Assembly (NCBI RefSeq): GCF_004959925.1
Contig: NZ_SPUW01000001.1
Coordinates: forward strand, 372,001-436,000
Length of the DNA: 64,000 nt
Direction: 5' to 3'
Source of the DNA: Pseudooceanicola onchidii
GTDB lineage: Bacteria > Pseudomonadota > Alphaproteobacteria > Rhodobacterales > Rhodobacteraceae
Below are positions 4,172 to 63,267 of the stretch, one piece after another; positions within the stretch are counted from its first letter, which is position 1, and every line of letters begins with the position of its first letter. The translations under genes and the position numbers were made by a program. Below the pieces are notes generated by a model, which did not search any database, had not been told where the DNA came from, and saw only the letters and a list, made by a program, of their open reading frames with translations.

Positions 4172-5572
4172 TCAGCCGACGTCGTAGGGCAGGGTGCCCC
4201 GCGCGTTCGGGTCGATGGTCAGCTTACGCTCCAGCGGGGGGACGGACCGCTGGTGGCAGTGTTCGCGTTCACAGATCCGGCACGAGATTCCGATGGGTTC
4301 GAAGGTGTCGGGCCGGGTCAGATCCAGATCGTCGGCATAGACCAGCGCGGGGGCATGCGTGACCTCGCATCCAAGCGCGATGGCGAACCGGCGGTCGGGC
4401 GCGCCCCAGGATCCGCCGGGCTTGCTGACATCGCGCGCGATCGAGATATAGCGCACCCCGTCGGGCGTTTCGGCCAGCTGCCGCAGGAACCGCCCCGGCG
4501 TTTCGAACGCCCGGTGCACGTTCCACAGCGGACAGGCGCCGCCAAAGCGGGCGAACTGCAACCGCGTGGCCGAGTGCCGTTTCGTGATCGTGCCGGCCTG
4601 GTCGACGCGCACGAAGAAGAACGGGATCCCCTTGGCGCCGGGGCGCTGCAGGGTCGACAGCCGGTGCGCCACCTGTTCGATCGAGGCACCGAACCGCAGG
4701 GCGAGGATTTCGACGTCATGCCGGACCTCGCGCGCGGCGTCGAGGAAGGTGGTGTAGGGCATCAGCGCGGCGCCGGCGAAATAATTGGCCAGCCCGATCT
4801 TGGCGATGGCGCGGGCGGCGTCGGACTGGAATTTCGCGAAATCCAGCGTCGCCTCAAGCAGGGGGTCGTGCTGCAGCAGCGCCATTTGCAGCAGCAGCTG
4901 GAAGGTCTGGGTTTCAGGCGCGGCGCGGCGCGACAGGGTCAGCCGCCGGGTTTCGGGATCATAGCTGCGCAGCGTCTTGGTGTCGGCGAAGCTGACGGAA
5001 ATCCCCTGGTTGCCCAGCTTGCTGACGGCGCGGACGCGGATGTTCTTTTCCGGCTGTGACGGCGAGGCAAAGTTTTCCGCCGCCCGGTCCACCGCGTCGA
5101 TGTAGTTGTCGCAGTAATGGAAGAAATCCCGCACCTCGTCCCAGGGCGAAGGCAGGGTGCGCGCATCTTCGCGCCCCAAGGCTTCGTCGAGCGAGGCAAG
5201 CCGTTCATGCGTCTGCCGGTAGGCGCGGTGCAGGTGCAGGAAGGCGCGGGCCAGCGCGGGCGCATTCGAGGCGGTCAGGCGCAGGTCGGCCAGGGGCGGC
5301 GCGACGTCGGCCAGGATCGGGTCGGCCATGGCTTCGCGCATGTCCGAGACCAGCCGTTCGCTGTCGCCGGTCGACAGTTCGGTGACGTCAAAGCCGAATT
5401 CCTGCGCCAGGGACAGGACAACCGTGGTCGACACCGGCCGGTTGTTGTTTTCCATCTGGTTGAGATAGGGCAGCGACACGCCCAGCTTGGCCGCGAATTC
5501 CTTCTGCGTCAGCCCCAGCTTCTGGCGCGTTTCCCGCAGCTTCGCCCCGGCGTAGAGTTTCTTGGTGCCCAT
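4172..5572 (-). CDS. pccR: Short-chain fatty acyl-CoA regulator (ScfR family), PccR-type
   Basis: A 466-residue XRE-type regulator. An N-terminal helix-turn-helix (about 9-65, with GLTQKEFAAKLGVSLPYLNQ) is followed by an ImmA/IrrE-like and DUF2083-type region. The C-terminus has clustered Cys/His residues (CRICEREHCHQR). In Rhodobacter sphaeroides the homologue PccR activates pccB during growth on propionate or acetate by binding TTTGCAAA sites. Here the same motif lies upstream of this gene and of pccB, which supports orthology and suggests autoregulation. The inferred ligand is an acyl-CoA of the propionyl/methylmalonyl route. The MFS gene lies upstream on the same strand, with a 64-base gap that holds the motif. 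Confidence 0.93.
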   Translation of the reverse strand: MGTKKLYAGAKLRETRQKLGLTQKEFAAKLGVSLPYLNQMENNNRPVSTTVVLSLAQEFGFDVTELSTGDSERLVSDMREAMADPILADVAPPLADLRLTASNAPALARAFLHLHRAYRQTHERLASLDEALGREDARTLPSPWDEVRDFFHYCDNYIDAVDRAAENFASPSQPEKNIRVRAVSKLGNQGISVSFADTKTLRSYDPETRRLTLSRRAAPETQTFQLLLQMALLQHDPLLEATLDFAKFQSDAARAIAKIGLANYFAGAALMPYTTFLDAAREVRHDVEILALRFGASIEQVAHRLSTLQRPGAKGIPFFFVRVDQAGTITKRHSATRLQFARFGGACPLWNVHRAFETPGRFLRQLAETPDGVRYISIARDVSKPGGSWGAPDRRFAIALGCEVTHAPALVYADDLDLTRPDTFEPIGISCRICEREHCHQRSVPPLERKLTIDPNARGTLPYDVG

Positions 5573-5582
5573 GCAGGTGCTT

Positions 5583-5620
5583 TTTGCAGATTTACACTAA
5601 CACAAGCCTAACTTTGCAAA
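5583..5620 (-). promoter_or_regulatory. Candidate PccR operator upstream of pccR
   Basis: A perfect TTTGCAAA lies at 5613-5620 and a degenerate TTTGCAGA at 5583-5590, between the MFS stop and the pccR start. TTTGCAAA is the published PccR recognition element in Rhodobacter sphaeroides. The position, within 50 bases of the start codon, suggests autoregulation. Confidence 0.65.
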
Positions 5621-5636
5621 CCTGCCCGCGCAAGCG

Positions 5637-6851
5637 TCAGCCGCGCAGCTGACGTTCGCGCAATAGCACCAGCAGGATCGACAGCAGCCCGGCCGTGCAG
5701 GTCATGGCCATCAGCACCAGCACCGGCATCTCTGTCGCGCCCGGCACCAACAGCAGCCCCGCCACCGCCGACAGGATGGCGCCGCCGCCGATCTGCATCG
5801 CGCCCCCCAGCCCCGAGGCCGTGCCGGCCAGGTGCGGGCGTACCGACAGCATGCCCGAGGTCGCCGAGGGGATCGTCAGCCCGTTGCCGACACCCACGAA
5901 GGTCATGCAGCCGAAGAAGATCCACTTGCCGCCCAGGCCCGCCATGGTCAGCGCGATGGCCGCCAGCACGCCAAGCGCCGCGACCAAGGTGCCCATGATG
6001 ATCATCCGGTTCATTCCGATCCGCGCCGCGGCCGCCCCGGTGATCCAGTTGCCCAGGAAATAGCCGATCGCCGGTGCGCCGGTGAAATAGCCGAACTCGG
6101 CCGGGGACATGCCGAAGACCTCGCTTGCCACGAAGGGGGCGCCGCCAAGGAACACGAAGAAAGCACCCGAGGTGAAGGCCGAGGTCATGCAGTATCCCCA
6201 GAAGCGCGGCGAGGTCAGCAGTTCGGGGTATTCGGCAAACTGCTGGCTGGTCGACAGGTCCGAGGGCGTGCCGGTTTCGCCCAGGTCGGCCCAGGTGATC
6301 GCGACGACGATCACGCCGCCGACAAACAGCGCCCAGAAGGTCGCCTGCCAGCCGTAGGCCTCGCTGAGCACGCCGCCGATCGCCGGGGCGATCATCGGCA
6401 CGACAGACATGCCCATGATGACGTATCCCATCTTGGACGCGGCCTGTTCCGGCGTGTTCATGTCGCGCACCACCGCCCGGCTTAGCACCATGGCCACGGC
6501 GACCGAAGCCTGTATGACCCGGAAGATCAGGAAGACCGTCACGTTGGGGGCGAAGAGGCAGCCAAGCGTCGCCACGCAGAAGATCGCCAGCCCCGACAGG
6601 ATGACCGGCCGCCGCCCGAACTTGTCGGCCAGCGGGCCGATGAAGATCTGCAAAAGACCGTTGCTGGCCAGGAAGATCGCCACTGACAGCTGCATCACCC
6701 GATAGGGCGTGTCAAAGTGCTCGGCCATCTGTGGCAGGGCCGGCAGGAAGACGTTCATCGTCAGCGCGGTCATGCTGGCAAGCAGGATCAGCGTCGACAG
6801 GTGCGGCGCAGAGCGGTGATCTAGGTAACGGGGTGCAGGGGCCATGGTCAT
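5637..6851 (-). CDS. Bcr/CflA-type multidrug efflux MFS transporter
   Basis: A 404-residue major facilitator protein with about 12 hydrophobic segments. Between TM2 and TM3 it has the MFS motif A as [12 protein letters not shown], which with the overall pattern matches the Bcr/CflA drug:H+ antiporter subfamily. It would export small molecules across the inner membrane by proton antiport; the substrate is unknown. GTG (6854), ATG (6851) and ATG (6845) are clustered start choices and 6851 is used here. It is divergent from pccB and shares with it a region holding PccR-like motifs, so it may be co-regulated with propionyl-CoA metabolism, for example to expel organic acids. That link is inference. 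Confidence 0.9.
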
Positions 6852-52814: not shown

Positions 52815-53281
52815 TCACCCTCATCGTCGCCCGCGACCGCAACGGCGCCATCGGTCGGGACGGGGACATCCCTTGGCACCTGCCGGGCGATCTGAAGATG
52901 TTCCAGCGCGAAACCACCGGAGGCGCCGTCATCATGGGCCGCGCCACATGGGAAAGCCTGCCGGTCAAGCCTTTGAAGGGGCGCCTGAATATCGTCGTCT
53001 CGCGGGATCCTTCGTTGGCCGAACACGTGGTCGGATCGGTGGCCGAGGCCGTCGCGCTGGCCCGTGCAGAGGGCTATTTCCGGCTGTACGGGATCGGAGG
53101 GGCGGGGATCTATCGCGAGATGCTGCCGCTGGCGCACCGGCTGCTGCTGACCGAGGTCGACTGCGCGGTCGAGGGCGCGGATACGTGGTTTCCCGAGGTG
53201 GATGAGGGAGAGTGGCGGGAGATCTCATCCCTGCCGGGCGAGGGGGAATTGGGATATTTGGTAAGGGAGTTGGGGAGGTGA
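52811..53281 (+). CDS. folA: Dihydrofolate reductase
   Basis: A 156-residue DHFR that reduces dihydrofolate with NADPH. The catalytic acid is Asp27 in [12 protein letters not shown]; the cofactor motif GRATWESLP and the loop [12 protein letters not shown] are present. The start overlaps the thyA stop as ATGA. The last bases of folA overlap a GTG that opens the AT-rich DUF6602 gene, which may therefore be co-expressed. The trimethoprim target of this organism. Confidence 0.96.
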
Positions 53282-54108
53282 GTGGTCTAAGGGATTATCT
53301 GAAATCGGAGTCCGATGAGCTGCGAATGTTCTTTCAACGAGCCAGTTTCGAAGGCAGAGGCACGCCCTCCGACGTCTCTGATAGAAGGGAAGGGCATTTT
53401 CAGAGAGTCCTATCGCGCTACCTTATGCCGGGCCAAAGAATTGCAAAAGGAGGTTTGGTTGGGGTTGATGGTTATAAGTCACAATCCATCGATTGTGTGG
53501 TTTTGAGTTCTGGTCATCCCTCTTTGGTTGATCAGAACGGTGACATCAGTTTGATTTTGGCCGAAGGTGTAGATGCCGCCATAGAAGTAAAGCCTGATAT
53601 ATCTAATAAGGTTGAGCTTAGGCGTGCGTTGGCGCAAGGGATTTCGGTGAAGAAAATATTTAGGCAACGCACTGGTCTATTGGATTTGACTTGGGCGTTT
53701 GAAGGGCGTGAAGACATGTCCGCAAAAGACTTTGCTCATAGAATTCCATTTATCATATTTGCTACTCGCACATACTCAGATTACGAGAAGCTAATTCGCG
53801 AGGTGTGCGATTATTACTTGGAGTTCAATGTTCCGAGGTCTCAGCAGTTCGATATGATTGTTGTCAATCATGGCGGAGTATTGATAAACGTGGCTCCGAA
53901 CAGCTTGCACATCAACGATAAGCAGAGATCAATGATTTGGGTTCCGGTTTCAGAAAATTCATTTGGTTTTTTTCTTTCAATCTTCCTGAAGTACCCGATG
54001 AGTGAGGCCGCTATTGGAGGAAACGTCCTTTCGAGTTACATTAGCTTTGGGACGCAAAGCGCTAAGCACGTCCCTGAAGTAGACGAAATCCTTCTTCAAC
54101 TTGGTTGA
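53278..54108 (+). CDS. DUF6602-type protein with PD-(D/E)xK-like motif, probably imported
   Basis: A 276-residue protein with base composition far more AT-rich than its neighbours, a sign of transfer. The segment SIDCVVLSSG followed by EGVDAAIEVKPDIS gives the D-x(n)-ExK pattern of PD-(D/E)xK nucleases, as in the DUF6602 family often found near defence genes. An upstream YLMPGQRIAKGGLVG-type strand is typical of the fold. It begins at GTG 53278 overlapping the folA stop (GTGA). There is no partner methylase, helicase or toxin-antitoxin in view, so its role, solitary defence nuclease or otherwise, is undetermined. Confidence 0.72.
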   Translation: MSGLRDYLKSESDELRMFFQRASFEGRGTPSDVSDRREGHFQRVLSRYLMPGQRIAKGGLVGVDGYKSQSIDCVVLSSGHPSLVDQNGDISLILAEGVDAAIEVKPDISNKVELRRALAQGISVKKIFRQRTGLLDLTWAFEGREDMSAKDFAHRIPFIIFATRTYSDYEKLIREVCDYYLEFNVPRSQQFDMIVVNHGGVLINVAPNSLHINDKQRSMIWVPVSENSFGFFLSIFLKYPMSEAAIGGNVLSSYISFGTQSAKHVPEVDEILLQLG

Positions 54109-54608: not shown

Positions 54609-54674
54609 GTAGGGCGGGGTTCACCCCGCCATGGCCCCGCTCGCATCGCGTCGGCGGGGTAAACCCCGCCCTAC
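54609..54674. repeat. Inverted pair of REP-like units
   Basis: A 22-base unit beginning GTAGGGCGGGG (54609-54630) is followed 22 bases later by its near-exact inverse (54653-54674). Each unit is itself palindromic (CGGGGT/ACCCCG). The same unit occurs exactly at 59311-59332 and 59347-59368. Confidence 0.85.
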
Positions 54675-56450: not shown

Positions 56451-56765
56451 ATGCAGCTCTATGGTCTGAAAAATTGTGACACCTGCCGCGCCGCGCGCAA
56501 GGCGTTGCCGGATGCGGAATTCGTCGATGTCAGGGATTCGGGCGTGCCGCCTGCGATTCTTTCCACCGCGCTCGACACCTTCGGAGAGGCGCTGGTGAAT
56601 CGCAAATCCACCACCTGGCGGGGGCTGGACGATGCCGCCCGCGCCCGGCCCCCGCTGGAGCTACTGCAGGACAATCCGACCCTGATGAAGCGCCCGCTGA
56701 TTGTCGACGGCGACCGGATGGTGCTGGGCTGGACCAAGGCCGCGCAAACCGAAATGGGCGTCTGA
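56451..56765 (+). CDS. ArsC/Spx family thioredoxin-fold protein
   Basis: A 104-residue protein of the ArsC/Spx/YffB family. The N-terminal YGLKNCDTCRAA carries a CxxC (Cys9, Cys12), and RPLIVDGDRMVLGW near the C-terminus is typical of YffB/ArsC-like proteins. True arsenate reductases need an Arg trio and a single Cys, so arsenate reduction is not assured; a thiol-oxidoreductase or regulatory role is likelier. ATG 56451 starts the fold correctly. It overlaps no gene and is followed after one base by the four-helix membrane gene. Confidence 0.87.
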   Translation: MQLYGLKNCDTCRAARKALPDAEFVDVRDSGVPPAILSTALDTFGEALVNRKSTTWRGLDDAARARPPLELLQDNPTLMKRPLIVDGDRMVLGWTKAAQTEMGV

Positions 56766-56766
56766 G

Positions 56767-57135
56767 ATGCGCAGCGCGGCGCTGATCCTTGGCCTGATCG
56801 GTGGTTTGATGGGGCTGCTCGTGGGGATCGTCAGCTATGGCTACACCACCGCGATCGACCACTTCGGTGAGGTCGAGGGGCTGTTCGAACAGGTGGCCAA
56901 CGTCGATGCGATCCGCGCCGCTTCGGTGATCGCGCCGATATTGGCCCTGGCCGGGGCAGGCATGGCGCCGCATCGCGCCCTTGTCGGCGGGTTGCTTCTG
57001 ATCGTGTCGGTCGTGGGCATGTACATGGGGATGGGCCTTGGGTTCTTCACCCTCTGGCCCATGGCCTTCTGCGGCGTGGCCGGGATCATGGCGTTGGCTG
57101 CAGGGCGCCCGGATGAACCGAAGGCGCATTTCTGA
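56767..57135 (+). CDS. Four-helix membrane protein of unknown function
   Basis: A 122-residue integral membrane protein with about four hydrophobic helices (AALILGLIGGLMGLLVGIVSYGY, IAPILALAGAGMAP, ALVGGLLLIVSVVGMYMGMGLGFFTLWP, AFCGVAGIMALAAG). Its start is one base after the ArsC-like stop, so the two are probably co-transcribed. Its last 50 bases overlap the 3' end of the bufD gene on the opposite strand, so RNA from both could base-pair. No family is recognised. Confidence 0.7.
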   Translation: MRSAALILGLIGGLMGLLVGIVSYGYTTAIDHFGEVEGLFEQVANVDAIRAASVIAPILALAGAGMAPHRALVGGLLLIVSVVGMYMGMGLGFFTLWPMAFCGVAGIMALAAGRPDEPKAHF

Positions 57136-57649
57136 AGACCAGCCGGTCCAGCGACAGCACGCCGCCGCCCAGCACGACAAGCGTTGCCAGCAGCGTCACC
57201 CAGAAGGCCCGCTGATCCAGGATCAACGCATCCGGCACCTTGTCGAACCACGCCCCAAGTGTTTCGGGATGCGCGATCGCGCCGTGCCCGTAAAGGTCGG
57301 TGAGGCTTTGCACCACCACGAAACCGATCATGCCAAGCGCGGCAAGCCGGGTCAGCAGGCCCAGAACAATCAGCGCGGGCAGGATGAATTCGGCCCAGGT
57401 GCCCGCCGTGACCACGGCCCAGTGGAAGACACCAAGGTTGTCTGGGTTATAGCCCGCGGCCTCGGTCGCCTTGGGAAAGATCTGTGCATAGGCCCCGAGC
57501 GAGGGCGAGAAGATCCCGAACAGACCCGACCCCAGCTTGGTCAGTCCCGAGGCCCAGAAATAGGGCAGCAGCACGGCGGCAAAGGTGAAACGGGCCAGAA
57601 GCGGCAACAGCGGGCTGAGCCGGGCAAGGGGGGCTGTCGGGTCGGTCAT
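57086..57649 (-). CDS. bufD: DoxX family protein of the bufferin operon (BufD)
   Basis: A 187-residue membrane protein with four helices. The DoxX signature FTFAAVLLPYFWASGLTKLG is at the start, a loop of about 40 residues follows, then helices about residues 80-100, 105-120 and 145-165. In bufferin and Hvf-type operons this is the fourth gene, a DoxX protein of unknown but linked function. The start overlaps the stop of bufC by four bases. The 3' end overlaps the convergent membrane gene by 50 bases. Confidence 0.85.
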   Translation of the reverse strand: MTDPTAPLARLSPLLPLLARFTFAAVLLPYFWASGLTKLGSGLFGIFSPSLGAYAQIFPKATEAAGYNPDNLGVFHWAVVTAGTWAEFILPALIVLGLLTRLAALGMIGFVVVQSLTDLYGHGAIAHPETLGAWFDKVPDALILDQRAFWVTLLATLVVLGGGVLSLDRLVFRNAPSVHPGALQPTP

Positions 57650-58401
57650 CTGGGGCCTCCGGGGGCTTGGATCAGGGCGTTCGATTGCATCAGCAGCGTG
57701 AGGATCGCGGTCGGGTCGTGGTCAGGGGCCACGGCGCAGGCGGCCTCGGCGGCCGTGGACAACGGCGACCCTTGGGCGAGGGCGTCGATGAACTCCGCAT
57801 CCCCCGTCGACAGCAGGTGTGGCGCGGGGTCATAGCCGGGGCGCAGGATCACCACGTCCTGCGCGCCCGGCGTCGCCTGCGGCGCCTCTGTGTCCCGGGT
57901 GCGCTGCCAGATCGACCAGACGGGCCAGTCGGACCGGATCAGCCGCAACGACTGGGCAAGCGCAAACCGCGTGTCGCCCAGATCCTCGGGCGGGATCGCA
58001 GATAACATCGCAGGTGTCAGGGCGTCCGCATCGGCGGCGTGATAGCTGTCGCGCAGGGCAAGCTCCAGCCGGGCCAGATCCCCGATCCAGCGCATCCGCG
58101 CAACCTGAGGCGCGGCATCAAGAAAGGCGGGCAGCGCCATGCCGAACCGCGCCATGAGAGGAGATTCCGGGGGGTGGGCCCGCAGGTAGACCGCCGCCAT
58201 CCCCCGGAACTGATCGTCACCAAGCACCATGTAACAAGCTGGAAATCCGTCGATCAGCGCCTCGGTCAGGCTGACCGCGACGTTGTTGCGATAGACCGCA
58301 AAGCGCCGCCCGGCGGGCCGCCCCGTGCCATCGGTCAGCGTGGGCGGGACCGGCATTCCGGGATCGCTCAGCGCCGCGCGGAATGTGGACTGGTCCGTCA
58401 T
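57646..58401 (-). CDS. bufC: DUF2063 family protein, HvfC/BufC-type
   Basis: A 251-residue protein with the HvfC/BufC N-terminal domain (DUF2063): [71 protein letters not shown]. BufC/HvfC partners bind the MNIO enzyme BufB and are thought to present the precursor leader or core to it. ATG 58401 overlaps the bufB stop as ATGA, and AAAGGG lies upstream. The longer frame is rejected. It is required with BufB for maturation of the copper-binding peptide in related systems. Confidence 0.9.
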
Positions 58402-59249
58402 GCGGCGGCCCTTTCGGCGGCCCGTGACAGCGCGTTCTCTGCGCGTGTGGCCTCGGCCGCCAGAACGGACCAGTCGGGCACGTCTGTGTCCCATTCGATC
58501 AACAACGGCGCAGGTCCGCGCCGGGCCAGCACGTCGTCCAGCAAAGCCCAGACCGGATCCGCGACCGCGCGCCCGTGGCTGTCGATCAGCAGCGGCGCGC
58601 CGTGGTCGTCTTCATCCTCGTCATGGCCGCCAAGGTGCAGCTCTCCGACCGCGTCCATGGGAAAATCGGCGATGTACTGCCGGGCATCCAGACGCAGGTT
58701 CGTGGCCGAGACGAAGACGTTGTTCACGTCGAGCAGCAACCCGCAACCGGTGCGGCGCACGACCTCGGCCAGAAACTCGGTCTCGGTCATCGTGCTCTCG
58801 GTGAAGGCGAGATAGCTTGAGGGGTTTTCCAGCAGCATCTGCCGCCCAAGCATCTCTTGCAGCTCGTCGATGTGATCGGCCACCCGGGCGACCGTTTCTG
58901 CGGTGTAGGGCAGGGGCAGCAGGTCGTTCAGGAAGGCCCCGTCATGCGTCGACCAGGCCAGGTGTTCGGAAAAACTGGCGGGGTTCAGCCAGTCGCACAG
59001 GTGTTTCAGCCGCGCCAGGTGGTCCGGATCCAGGCGCCCCTCGCCGCCGATCGACAGGCCGACGCCATGCACGGAAATGGGAAATCGCTCGGCCAGGTGA
59101 CGCAGCTGCGCGATCGGACGGCCGCCATCGCCCATGTAGTTCTCGGCGTGAATTTCCAGCCATCCGACGGCACCGGGATCAGCCATGATGTCGGCATAGT
59201 GCTGCGGTTTGTACCCGACGCCGGGCGCGGGGGGCAGGGGGTGATGCAT
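58398..59249 (-). CDS. bufB: MNIO family enzyme (DUF692), bufferin maturase BufB
   Basis: A 283-residue TIM-barrel multinuclear non-heme iron oxidase. Candidate metal ligands sit where the family places them: His61 (SVHGVGL), His96 (SEHLAW), Glu141 (ENPSSY), Asp174/Asn176 (LDVNNVFVS), His205/His209 (ELHLGGHD), Asp223/His225 (DSHGR) and Glu252 (IEWDTD). MNIOs of this group convert cysteines of the BufA precursor to 5-thiooxazoles, using O2. It forms an operon with bufC (ATGA overlap). It is separated from bufA by 175 bases that contain an inverted pair of REP units, so its expression may be lower than that of bufA. Confidence 0.92.
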
Positions 59250-59310
59250 CGGGGTCTCCTGTCTGGGCGCAAGATCAGTGGCGGGTGGAGGAGTGGCTGC
59301 GGGGAGTAGC

Positions 59311-59368
59311 GGCGGGGTGAACCCCGCCCTACGAATGCGCTGGCGTGTAGGGCGGGGTTCACCCCGCC
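59311..59368. repeat. Inverted pair of REP-like units between bufA and bufB
   Basis: Two 22-base units lie head to head: 59311-59332 is the exact inverse of 59347-59368. Both match the units at 54609-54674. Spaced by 14 bases, they can fold into a stem of more than 20 base pairs in the intercistronic mRNA, a possible attenuator or mRNA stabiliser. Confidence 0.85.
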
Positions 59369-59424
59369 GACCGCGTCGCCGAAGCCACGGGGCGGAGGAT
59401 CATCCCCGCCCCGCGCCAAAGGCC

Positions 59425-59748
59425 TCAGCCTTCCATCGGCAGGTCGCGGTCCAACTCGCTCAGGCTGCCCATCTTGCCTTCGGGCAGCATGACCTTGGTG
59501 CCGTCGGCCAGGACCGGTTCCGCGCTTTCGCAGGTGCCGTCCTGCACCAGCGTCCAGGCGTTGCCCTGGTAGTCGACCTTGGAGGTGCCGGCGCAGGTCG
59601 TGCCCGGGCCCGCGGCGCAGTCGTTCTTGCCGGCCATCGACACGCCGAAGCACTTGACGTTGTCGGCCGCGCTTGCCGGAACGGCAGCGGCGGTGGCGGA
59701 CACGGCGGCGGCGAATGCGGTCAGGACGAGGGCTTTGTTCGTTTTCAT
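59425..59748 (-). CDS. bufA: Bufferin precursor BufA (DUF2282 family copper-binding RiPP)
   Basis: A 107-residue exported precursor: signal peptide about 1-28 ([17 protein letters not shown]), then a small core with four cysteines: Cys33 (VKCFG), Cys44 (NDCAAG), Cys52 (TTCAGT) and Cys73 (GTCESA). This is the BufA1/DUF2282 pattern. In characterised bufferins the two central cysteines are turned into thiooxazoles by BufB/BufC and the peptide binds copper in the periplasm to protect the cell. ATG 59748 has CGGAGGA. It is transcribed leftward, toward bufB-bufC-bufD, from a SigF-type promoter and stands head to head with sigF. Confidence 0.93.
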
Positions 59749-59809
59749 GATTTCCTCCGTTGGAAACTTGCAAAGGTGCGGCACCGGAATTGGCGACCGT
59801 GCTATCCCA

Positions 59810-59835
59810 TTCGCGGGCCGGGGAGGGTCCGTTAC
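59810..59835 (-). promoter_or_regulatory. SigF-type ECF promoter of bufA
   Basis: Read on the minus strand: GTAACG (59835-59830), exactly 16 bases, then CGAA (59813-59810). This matches the Caulobacter SigF consensus GTAACC-N16-CGAA closely. Start of transcription is expected near 59803, about 55 bases upstream of the bufA ATG. Confidence 0.75.
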
Positions 59836-59883
59836 ATCGCTCACGAACGAGTGAAGGATATTTCCAATTTTAATCGGTTCGCT

Positions 59884-59909
59884 GTAACGATTGCCCCGGG
59901 ATGCGCGAA
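59884..59909 (+). promoter_or_regulatory. SigF-type ECF promoter of sigF-nrsF (autoregulatory)
   Basis: GTAACG (59884-59889), exactly 16 bases, then CGAA (59906-59909), the mirror image of the bufA promoter. The sigF ATG is only 12 bases after CGAA, so the mRNA would have a leader of about 5 bases. Confidence 0.72.
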
Positions 59910-59920
59910 TGGAGAGGGGA

Positions 59921-60481
59921 ATGCCGGATCGCAACGACCGTTGGAGCGATCTTCTGCGCCGGGGCCTGCGCGGGGACGGTGCCGCCTATGGGGCCTTCCT
60001 TGGTGAAATCGCCCCGGTCATCCGGGGCATCGTGCGCGCCCGCACCGGCGGTGCCGAAGATGCCGAGGACATCGTGCAGGAGGTGCTTCTTGCGGTTCAC
60101 GCCAAACGCCATACATGGCGCGAGGACGAACCGGTGACGCCGTGGCTTTACGCGATCGCGCGCTACAAGGCGGCGGACGCGGGGCGCAGGCGGGGCCGTC
60201 AGGGGCCGCAGGTGCCGATCCACGACCTGGCCGAGATCCTGCCCGAAGAGGCCGGAGAGGCCACCGCCGCCCGCGACCTGTCGGTCCTGCTGGACCGGAT
60301 CGACGACCGGTCGGCCCGGATCGTGCGGGCCATGGGGGTCGAGGGACGCAGCGCCGCCGAGGTGGGCGCCGAGATGAACATGACGGACGGCGCGGTCCGG
60401 GTGGCCTATCACCGCGCGCTGGTCCGGTTGAAGGACCTGGCGGAGGGCGATGCCCACCCGCATCTGGACAAGACGAGCTGA
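59921..60481 (+). CDS. sigF: ECF sigma factor of the SigF (metal/redox stress) type
   Basis: A 186-residue group IV sigma factor: region 2 about 20-85 ([56 protein letters not shown]) and region 4 about 120-175 ([51 protein letters not shown]). In Caulobacter SigF governs the response to chromium, cadmium and copper, and activates bufferin genes. The gene overlaps nrsF by one base (TGATG), so sigma and anti-sigma are made in step. ATG 59921 has GGAGAGGGG; the TTG start further upstream would lie inside the promoter. Confidence 0.9.
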
Positions 60482-61122
60482 TGAAGACCGATGACCTGAT
60501 CTCCCTGCTGGCCCAAGACGCCGCCCCGCCCCCCGCCGCCCCCGTGGCGCAGCAGGCCGTGCTGGGCGTGGCGTTCGGGTTTGTCGGGGCGCTGATCCTC
60601 TACCTGCTGGCACTGGGCCCCCGCGCGGACCTGATGATCCGCTGGCAGGATCCCGTAGTGCTGGCCAAAACCTTGCTGCCGCTAGGGCTTTTTGCCCTCG
60701 CGCTGGTGCTGAGCCTGCGTCGCGTGCGCCCCGGCGCCGCCATGGGCAAGGCCGCGCGGCTGGTCTGGCTGGTACCGCTGATGGCCGCAGCGCTGTTTGT
60801 CTGGGCCTTTGTTGCGACGCCCCCGGGCGAACGGCTGGTGGATTTCCTGGGCCATTCGATCCCGGTCTGCCTGCCTGCGATCAACGTGCTGTCGCTGCCG
60901 ATCCTCGGCGGGCTGATCTTTGCCCTGCGCCGGGGCGCGCCGGTCGATCCGCAACTGGCGGGGGCGCTGGCCGGGCTGGCGTCGGCGGGGCTGGCGACGG
61001 CGCTCTATTCGACCTTCTGCACCGAGGACAGCCCGCTGTTCTACGCGACGTGGTATTCGCTTGGCATCATCTTCACCGCCGGGCTGGGCGCCTGGGCGGG
61101 CGGCAAGTGGCTGCGCTGGTAG
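60481..61122 (+). CDS. nrsF: DUF1109 anti-sigma factor NrsF
   Basis: A 213-residue membrane protein with six predicted helices and a short cytoplasmic N-terminus ([18 protein letters not shown]) that probably binds SigF. It has only two cysteines: Cys130 (SIPVCLPAI) and Cys180 (STFCTEDSPLFY). In Caulobacter NrsF two cysteines at comparable positions are required for sensing metal. It overlaps sigF by one base. The inferred mechanism is that metal or oxidant reacts with the cysteine pair, NrsF releases SigF, and sigF-nrsF and bufABCD are transcribed. Confidence 0.9.
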   Translation: MKTDDLISLLAQDAAPPPAAPVAQQAVLGVAFGFVGALILYLLALGPRADLMIRWQDPVVLAKTLLPLGLFALALVLSLRRVRPGAAMGKAARLVWLVPLMAAALFVWAFVATPPGERLVDFLGHSIPVCLPAINVLSLPILGGLIFALRRGAPVDPQLAGALAGLASAGLATALYSTFCTEDSPLFYATWYSLGIIFTAGLGAWAGGKWLRW

Positions 61123-61146
61123 GGCGACGGTCGGACGGGTGACGGG

Positions 61147-61173
61147 GGCGGTGCGTGCAAGCACGCACCCTAC
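61147..61173. repeat. Palindromic intergenic repeat, copy 2
   Basis: The 27-base element of 26584-26610 in reverse orientation, with the same GGTGCGTGC...GCACGCACC palindrome. It lies 25 bases after the nrsF stop, between nrsF and the convergent thrS. Confidence 0.75.
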
Positions 61174-61235
61174 GGGCGCCTGAGGGGCATCAAGGCGGCG
61201 TCGCAGGAGAACGTTCATGACTGCGAAAGGGCAGC

Positions 61236-61265
61236 AAAAAGGCCGGTCGCGGGACCGGCCTTTCC
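61236..61265 (-). terminator. Rho-independent terminator of thrS
   Basis: AAAGGCCGGTC (61238-61248) pairs with GACCGGCCTTT (61253-61263). On the minus strand the stem is followed by TTTTTGC, a clear intrinsic terminator for thrS; on the plus strand it could also stop nrsF transcription. Confidence 0.88.
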
Positions 61266-61287
61266 TGAAACATCGGGGATCTGACGC

Positions 61288-63267
61288 TCAGCGCATGTCC
61301 GGCGGGGTCGCCTCGCCCTTCAGCTGCGCGACGATCTCGTCAAGGCTGGCGGCGAAGGTCTGTTTCTCGCCCAGCTTGCGGACCGAGACCGACCGTTCCT
61401 CGACCTCGCGCGCGCCGACGGCAAGGATGTAGGGCACCTTGCCAAGCGAATGCTCGCGGACCTTGTAGTTGATCTTCTCGTTGCGCAGGTCCGCCTCGGC
61501 GCGGACACCGGCGGCGGTCAGGGCCGCGACGACCTCGCGCACGTAGTCATCCGCATCCGACACGATCGAGGCCACGACGACCTGGCGCGGGGCCAGCCAC
61601 ACGGGCAGCTTGCCTGCGTGTTCCTCGATCAGGATGCCGATGAAGCGTTCGAACGACCCAAGCGTCGCACGGTGCAGCATGTAGGGGCGGTGCTTGTCGC
61701 CATCCGCCGCGATATAGCTGGCGTTCAGGCGTTCGGGCAGGTTCGGGTCGACCTGGAAGGTGCCGCACTGCCAGACCCGGCCGATCGCGTCGGTCAGGTA
61801 GAAGTCCAGCTTGGGCCCGTAGAAGGCGCCATCGCCGGGTTCCAGAGTATAGTCGCGGCCCACGGCCTTGATGGCGTTTTCCAGCGCGTTCTCGACATAG
61901 TCCCAGCTTTCCTCGGTGCCGACCCGCTTTTCGGGGCGCGTGGCGAACTTGATCTCGAATTCCGGGAAGCCAAGCTCGGCATAGATATTGGCGAGGAAGT
62001 CGATGAACCGGGCGCATTCGGCCTGGATCTGGTCTTCGGTGCAGAAGATATGCGCGTCATCCTGGGTGAACCCACGCACCCGCATGATCCCGTGCAGCGC
62101 GCCCGAGGGTTCGAACCGCGCGCAGGATCCGAATTCGGCCAGCCGCAGCGGCAGGTCGCGATAGGATTTCAGACCCTGGTTGAACACCTGCACGTGGCAG
62201 GGGCAGTTCATCGGCTTGAGCGCGTTGATGCGGGTGTGTTCGCGGCTCTTGGCCTCCGCATCGTCGTTTTCGCCGTCACGGCTTTCGTCGACTTCGACGA
62301 CGAACATGTGGTGCTGGTACTTGTCCCAGTGGCCCGAGGCCTCCCACAGCTTGCGGTCGACGACCTGCGGGGTGTTGATTTCGCGATAGCCGCCCGCGCG
62401 CTGCTTGCGGCGCATGTAGTCCTGAAGCTCGGTATAGATGGTCCACCCGTTCGGATGCCAGAACACCTGGCCCGGGGCTTCTTCCTGCATGTGGAACAGG
62501 TCCATCTCGCGGCCAAGCTTGCGGTGGTCGCGCTTTTCGGCCTCTTCCAGCATCAGCATGTGCTGTTTGAGCGCCTTGCGGTCCTTGAAGGCCACGCCGT
62601 AGATCCGTTGCAGCATCGGCCGGGTGCTGTCGCCCAGCCAGTAGGCGCCGGCCACGTGGGTCAGCTTGAATCCGTCGGCGGGCACCTGGCCGGTGTGCTG
62701 CAGGTGCGGGCCGCGGCACAGATCCTGCCAGTCGCCATGCCAGTACATGCGGATCGGCTCGTCCCCGGGGATGCGGTTGATCAGCTCGACCTTGTAGGGC
62801 TCGCCGGTCTTCTCGTAATGCGCGATGGCATCGGCGCGCGACCAGACCTCCGTCTTCACCGCGTCGCGGGCGTTGATGATGTCCTTCATCTTGGCTTCGA
62901 TCTGGCCAAGGTCCTCGGGGGTGAAGGGCTCGGCCCGGTCGAAATCGTAGAACCAGCCATGATCGCGGACCGGGCCGATGGTGACCTTCACGTCCGGCCA
63001 GATCTCCTGCACGGCGCGGGCCATGATGTGGGCCAGGTCGTGGCGGATCAGCTCTAGCGCCTGATCGTCGTCCTGCAGGGTGTGGATGGCAATCTCGGCG
63101 TCGTCCTCGATCGGCCACTGCAGATCGTAATGCGCGCCGTTCACGGTCGCGCTGATCGCCTTCTTGCCAAGCGAGGTCGAGATGTCAGAGGCCACCTGCG
63201 CGGGCGTGATGCCGGCGTCGACCTGTTTGGAGTTGCCATCGGGGAAGGTGAGGGTGATCTGGGACAT
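61288..63267 (-). CDS. thrS: Threonyl-tRNA synthetase
   Basis: A 659-residue class II synthetase. In order: TGS domain (1-62, [14 protein letters not shown]), editing domain with [11 protein letters not shown] (about 90-100), catalytic core with [37 protein letters not shown] and [18 protein letters not shown], and the C-terminal anticodon-binding domain ([13 protein letters not shown]). The zinc Cys in MNCPCH is present. ATG 63267 has GACGAGGAGGACAG. No leader regulatory structure is evident, as expected outside gammaproteobacteria. A terminator follows. Confidence 0.97.

Follow-up and report, generated by a model that had tools for sequence, protein, structure and literature searches.

The window analysed here, one 64-kb stretch of Pseudooceanicola onchidii DNA (contig NZ_SPUW01000001.1, positions 372,001 to 436,000), carries an operon for a predicted copper-binding peptide, the bufferin operon bufABCD, head to head with sigF–nrsF, a gene pair for a predicted extracytoplasmic function (ECF) sigma factor and its membrane anti-sigma factor. 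The arrangement raises the question of how the operon is controlled, and whether operon and switch form a mobile unit or belong to the chromosome. The roles of SigF/NrsF, of the bufferin and of copper are predicted here from the genes, and on that footing we consider it very probable that this is a chromosomal Buf1-type operon under a dedicated ECF sigma/anti-sigma switch, presumably released by copper. The features concerned are the following.

57086-57649, minus strand: bufD, DoxX-family membrane protein (Pfam PF07681, 2.6e-7)
57646-58401, minus strand: bufC, DUF2063 partner protein of BufB (Pfam PF09836, 1.1e-22; 80.5 bits against a cut-off of 27.2)
58398-59249, minus strand: bufB, MNIO enzyme, predicted bufferin maturase (Pfam PF05114, MbnB_TglH_ChrH, 8.7e-105)
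59425-59748, minus strand: bufA, predicted bufferin precursor of 107 aa (Pfam DUF2282, 7.1e-22)
59810-59835, minus strand: SigF-type promoter facing bufABCD, GTAACG-N16-CGAA
59841-59854, no strand: TCAC-N6-GTGA palindrome, candidate operator, 5 bp upstream of the bufA -35
59884-59909, plus strand: SigF-type promoter facing sigF–nrsF (putative autoregulation), GTAACG-N16-CGAA
59921-60481, plus strand: sigF, ECF sigma factor of 186 aa (Sigma70_r2, 4.5e-12; Sigma70_r4, 1.9e-7)
60481-61122, plus strand: nrsF, membrane anti-sigma factor (Pfam NrsF, 8.5e-54)

By its predicted products the locus combines a full set of Buf1-type bufferin genes with a SigF/NrsF pair. The DUF2282 precursor BufA has exactly four cysteines, at residues 33, 44, 52 and 73, all kept in an alignment with three distant relatives, and an N-terminus that looks signal-like (a signal peptide call made by eye only); together with the MNIO enzyme BufB and the DUF2063 protein BufC it gives the composition of a Buf1 cluster. 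BufB passes the NCBIfam model NF050167 (379.8 bits against a cut-off of 310) and matches the solved MNIO structures 3bww and 8hci in the PDB. The ECF sigma gene is followed by the gene for an NrsF membrane anti-sigma factor with exactly two cysteines, Cys130 and Cys180, both conserved, which is the Caulobacter type of SigF–NrsF pair. The preliminary description of this DNA had reported bufABCD as co-directional and sigF–nrsF as divergent from it, and its layout was confirmed base for base, with all six families matched: bufABCD runs from 59748 down to 57086 on the minus strand, with 4-base overlaps of bufB with bufC (58398-58401) and of bufC with bufD (57646-57649), and sigF and nrsF, overlapping by 1 base, occupy 59921-61122 on the plus strand across a gap of 172 bp.

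Inside this gap lie both divergent promoters, which were absent from that description. On either side the sequence GTAACG-N16-CGAA is one base off the Caulobacter SigF consensus, GTAACC-N16-CGAA (PMC3511200); with a loose form of the pattern 0.35 matches are expected per 64 kb, and two or more occurred in 5 of 100 shuffles. The distance from the -10 to the start codon gives an estimated bufA leader of about 55 nt, near the transcription start of Caulobacter CC3254, mapped at -61 (PMC3511200). From the end of the -10 of the sigF promoter (CGAA) to the ATG of sigF there are 11 nt (59906-59921), so that a leader of only a few nucleotides is expected there; a downstream start or near-leaderless translation of sigF is possible. 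The extent of the regulon was examined by pattern searches of the genome. In its 3.67 Mb, TGTAAC-N17-CGAA occurs exactly twice, once facing bufA and once facing sigF, with no other strict SigF site found, and DUF2282 and MNIO are each represented by a single gene, a second MNIO gene not being found. Given this unique promoter pair and these single genes, the SigF circuit appears confined to its own locus, which bears out the preliminary description's term ‘self-contained’. Four other genomic sites of the form GTAACS-N16-CGAA were considered as members of a wider SigF regulon and rejected; they lie inside coding regions or where these begin.

The coupling itself, described earlier as rarely discussed for a Rhodobacterales genome, is not new. 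In Caulobacter, CC3252–CC3257 comprise the identical six genes with the same divergent layout and promoter class, and both promoters have been mapped and tested by lacZ fusions (PMC3511200); the SigF regulon there was copper-induced under every condition tested, and a sigF::Tn5 mutant was copper-sensitive (PMC8224329). Sigma factor and NrsF genes are also reported as neighbours in Buf1, not Buf2, clusters (PMC12452194), and in our class-wide sample many NrsF loci have bufA near sigF. The present locus resembles the Caulobacter unit sigF–nrsF/CC3254–CC3257 in its six divergent genes, in GTAAC-N16-CGAA on both sides and in the two conserved NrsF cysteines, Cys130 and Cys180 corresponding to C131 and C181, which matter for repression in Caulobacter (PMC3511200). 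It differs in its -35 (GTAACG rather than GTAACC) and in its reach: SigF of Caulobacter additionally drives msrPQ and another bufferin operon (CC2907–CC2905), and the genome of the window yielded neither a further strict SigF site nor a second MNIO gene. With the Buf1 clusters it shares the four-cysteine DUF2282 precursor, the MNIO, DUF2063 and DoxX proteins and the sigma/NrsF genes; the passages of PMC12452194 consulted do not treat the Rhodobacteraceae address, the loss of SigF or the palindrome discussed below. The gig/dax operons of Cupriavidus and Legionella are, by the descriptions in PMC8224329 and PMC5413113, a homologous metal-induced cassette.

Our working hypothesis for this locus is anchored in its genes, its promoters, which form a pair unique in the genome, and the conserved address described below. 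By analogy with Caulobacter, SigF would be held by the membrane protein NrsF in the unstressed cell and released by excess copper or another thiol-reactive metal. Free SigF would then transcribe its own operon and bufABCD from the two divergent promoters, BufB and BufC would convert cysteines of the BufA precursor to thiooxazoles, and exported BufA would buffer copper in the periplasm, with an accessory membrane role for BufD and perhaps with a second DNA-binding regulator acting at the palindrome. Metal sensing, SigF release, cysteine modification and copper binding are presumed from the Caulobacter precedent.

For the wider history of the locus we compared 80 related loci from named genomes, 60 loci from family genomes taken one per genus, and the window. 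The operon bufABCD adjoins thrS in 111 of the 135 loci that have both bufA and bufB, a figure that includes the 80 loci chosen by similarity to the window BufB and so biased; the unlinked loci of the per-genus set, which were not so chosen, give the thrS address in 34 of 40 cases. A DUF2282 gene was found in 107 of 150 genera and NrsF in 23. The address is thus constant across the family and the sigF–nrsF pair is the part that varies between genomes: most Rhodobacteraceae have the thrS-linked operon without sigF–nrsF and without a SigF promoter, and SigF-linked units at thrS are those of the window, Pseudooceanicola, Oceanicola sp. 22II-s10i, Primorskyibacter flagellatus, Tropicimonas sp. IMCC6043 and G010. 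Other SigF-linked units have scattered addresses, and their BufB proteins form a separate group. The thrS address and the palindrome are features of the Rhodobacteraceae that set these loci apart from the Caulobacter unit.

What the promoter looks like with and without the switch can be compared directly. Of 21 linked loci, 17 have a SigF motif directed at bufA, against 1 of 114 unlinked ones. In 20 of the 21 linked loci, window included, the 34 nt ahead of the SigF -35 of bufA contain a single palindrome of the form (T/A)CAC-N6-G(T/C)G(A/T) (mean in shuffled sequence, 0.3), which starts 19–20 nt before GTAAC in 18 of the 21 and takes the strict form TCAC-N6-GTGA in 13; the -35 was set by a fallback rule in two or three loci, and since the pattern was found by reading these loci and fitted to them, these counts are descriptive and no independent test. 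The thrS-linked bufABCD of other Rhodobacteraceae (L028–L073 and others) is the same operon at the same address as in the window, without sigF–nrsF, and in about half of these relatives a doubled palindrome with a sigma-70-like -10 replaces the SigF promoter. When no more than one mismatch is allowed, the doubled form (ACG-N4-CGTGA-N2-CACG-N4-YGTGA) precedes bufA in 47 of 93 SigF-free genomes, whereas all 14 SigF-linked ones lack it there (Fisher p 2e-4, a value that is too small because related genomes are not independent). It is followed at fixed spacing by a hexamer, TANNN(T/G); of 79 loci, 59% have this at one and the same position and 14% at the position next to it, an arrangement to be expected of a sigma-70-type -10 where an activator binds beside the -35. 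The relatives without the switch, which are the majority, appear to use another promoter. A TGTAACA in strong excess upstream of bufA (81 of 102 SigF-free loci) was rejected as a changed ECF promoter, because most of these sites belong to the last part of the thrS reading frame (...SVTSL... codons and a GTG-TAA stop). Nor does the doubled palindrome define a regulon: 13 of its 60 genomic matches lie away from bufA, a frequency similar to that of a reversed-pattern control (8). In G057 the genes for an ECF sigma factor and an anti-sigma factor of the ChrR type immediately precede the operon (L147:4078-8147; Pfam Cupin_7 and sigma regions), and another ECF system may control bufferins in that genus. 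Two tandem bufA genes precede bufB in L038, L048, L061, L083, L099 and L103 (about 5060–5960 in each).

Whether these observations amount to a second regulator bound at TCAC-N6-GTGA, together with the repeated replacement, at one address, of ECF control that has one operator by control of the sigma-70 type whose operator is doubled, the window keeping the older double control, we judge from the sequences to be evenly poised. The palindrome might instead serve the SigF promoter as an accessory element, conserved through contacts with RNA polymerase, and be no regulator site at all, which we think possible but doubtful. Its near-constant distance from the -35 would suit such a role, and no protein is known to bind it; among the neighbours of relocated bufABCD loci there was no consistent candidate. 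Against this, the doubled form is retained in SigF-free loci at a fixed distance from the sigma-70-like -10, the palindrome does not stand ahead of the sigF promoter although that promoter is of the same class, and in other families few SigF-linked loci have it. A further genomic site, TCAC-N5-CGTGAG, stands about 100 bp upstream of a gene whose product, judged by eye, resembles a fasciclin-type protein (L241:2370-3043; G000:C2, about 731.4–732.0 kb); it may be due to chance.

Some results weigh against our interpretation. NrsF scores 103.5 against an NCBIfam equivalog cut-off of 300, BufC also falls under its equivalog cut-off, and a regulon without a second MNIO gene or further strict SigF sites is smaller than that of Caulobacter. 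In addition, the thrS-linked SigF set, supported at 99/97 in a tree of BufB and BufC, is recovered in the tree of SigF and NrsF with support of only 67/68, so that repeated loss of sigF–nrsF is no more than probable against a few gains. On the simplest history SigF control, with a candidate second regulator, would be ancestral: an ancestor of the thrS-linked bufferin lineage would have carried the whole unit beside thrS, and sigF–nrsF would since have been lost repeatedly elsewhere and kept in the window. Under the converse history the SigF-free state would be the older one at this address and the pair would have been acquired there, between thrS and bufA, on a few occasions. The BufB tree, which spreads the SigF-linked thrS loci over about four positions amid many unlinked loci, speaks for such gains, yet we hold them to be unlikely: each would have had to strike the same spot in the same divergent orientation, and the SigF and NrsF proteins of these loci cluster with one another and branch as the operon does, with L086 and L107 outside the other seven. 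Locus L123 has no sigF at the thrS address, in a genome that keeps sigF–nrsF elsewhere (L124); upstream of its bufA there remain CGTTACAG, which points in the direction opposite to bufA, and a degenerate form of the bufA promoter, a hint of sigF loss. Pairs of sigF and nrsF distant from any bufA occur in four family genomes (L117, L122, L124 and L125).

The suggestion that the whole sigF–nrsF–bufABCD block is a mobile metal-stress island acquired horizontally by this genome is already largely refuted and in our view highly improbable, for although the pair is patchy among genera and SigF-linked units at other addresses in the family (L106, L108–L115 and L118–L120) indicate that the cassette is able to change place over evolution, the locus comparison puts the window operon between thrS and arsC at the common fixed address, its BufB groups with the thrS-linked proteins and apart from the scattered units, regulator and operon trees broadly agree, and the surrounding genes (thrS, an ArsC family gene, a cold-shock gene), in a domain scan of the six genes and selected neighbours, are housekeeping ones, so that neither a variable address nor a history unlike that of the surroundings was found. 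From these comparisons the locus looks like an old, vertically inherited part of the chromosome. A DUF6602 protein of 298 aa (53212-54108) encoded nearby is possibly an accessory gene among the housekeeping ones.

One further feature lies within the operon.

59250-59424, minus strand: bufA–bufB intercistronic region with two strong hairpins, one of them a genome-wide repeat resembling repetitive extragenic palindromic (REP) elements; fold z-score -7.0

The REP-like element is a perfect 23-nt inverted repeat, GTAGGGCGGGGTTCACCCCGCCG (59310-59369); a second such pair lies at 54609-54674, and 33 matching arms occur genome-wide. The hairpin may set the ratio of BufA to BufB by protecting bufA mRNA. 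An Rfam search of 56700-61400 returned no RNA family.

What is new here is the comparative picture, a conserved palindrome and the apparent loss of an ECF switch in the Rhodobacteraceae. It corrects a plausible over-reading, as the coupling of sigma factor and bufferin was already known and is here apparently vertical, not mobile. The same operon, present at a single address in some genomes with its ECF switch and in others without it, provides a natural series for studying how an ECF circuit is lost and another promoter takes over, and the palindrome points to a further candidate regulator for copper-peptide genes in a large family of mainly marine bacteria.

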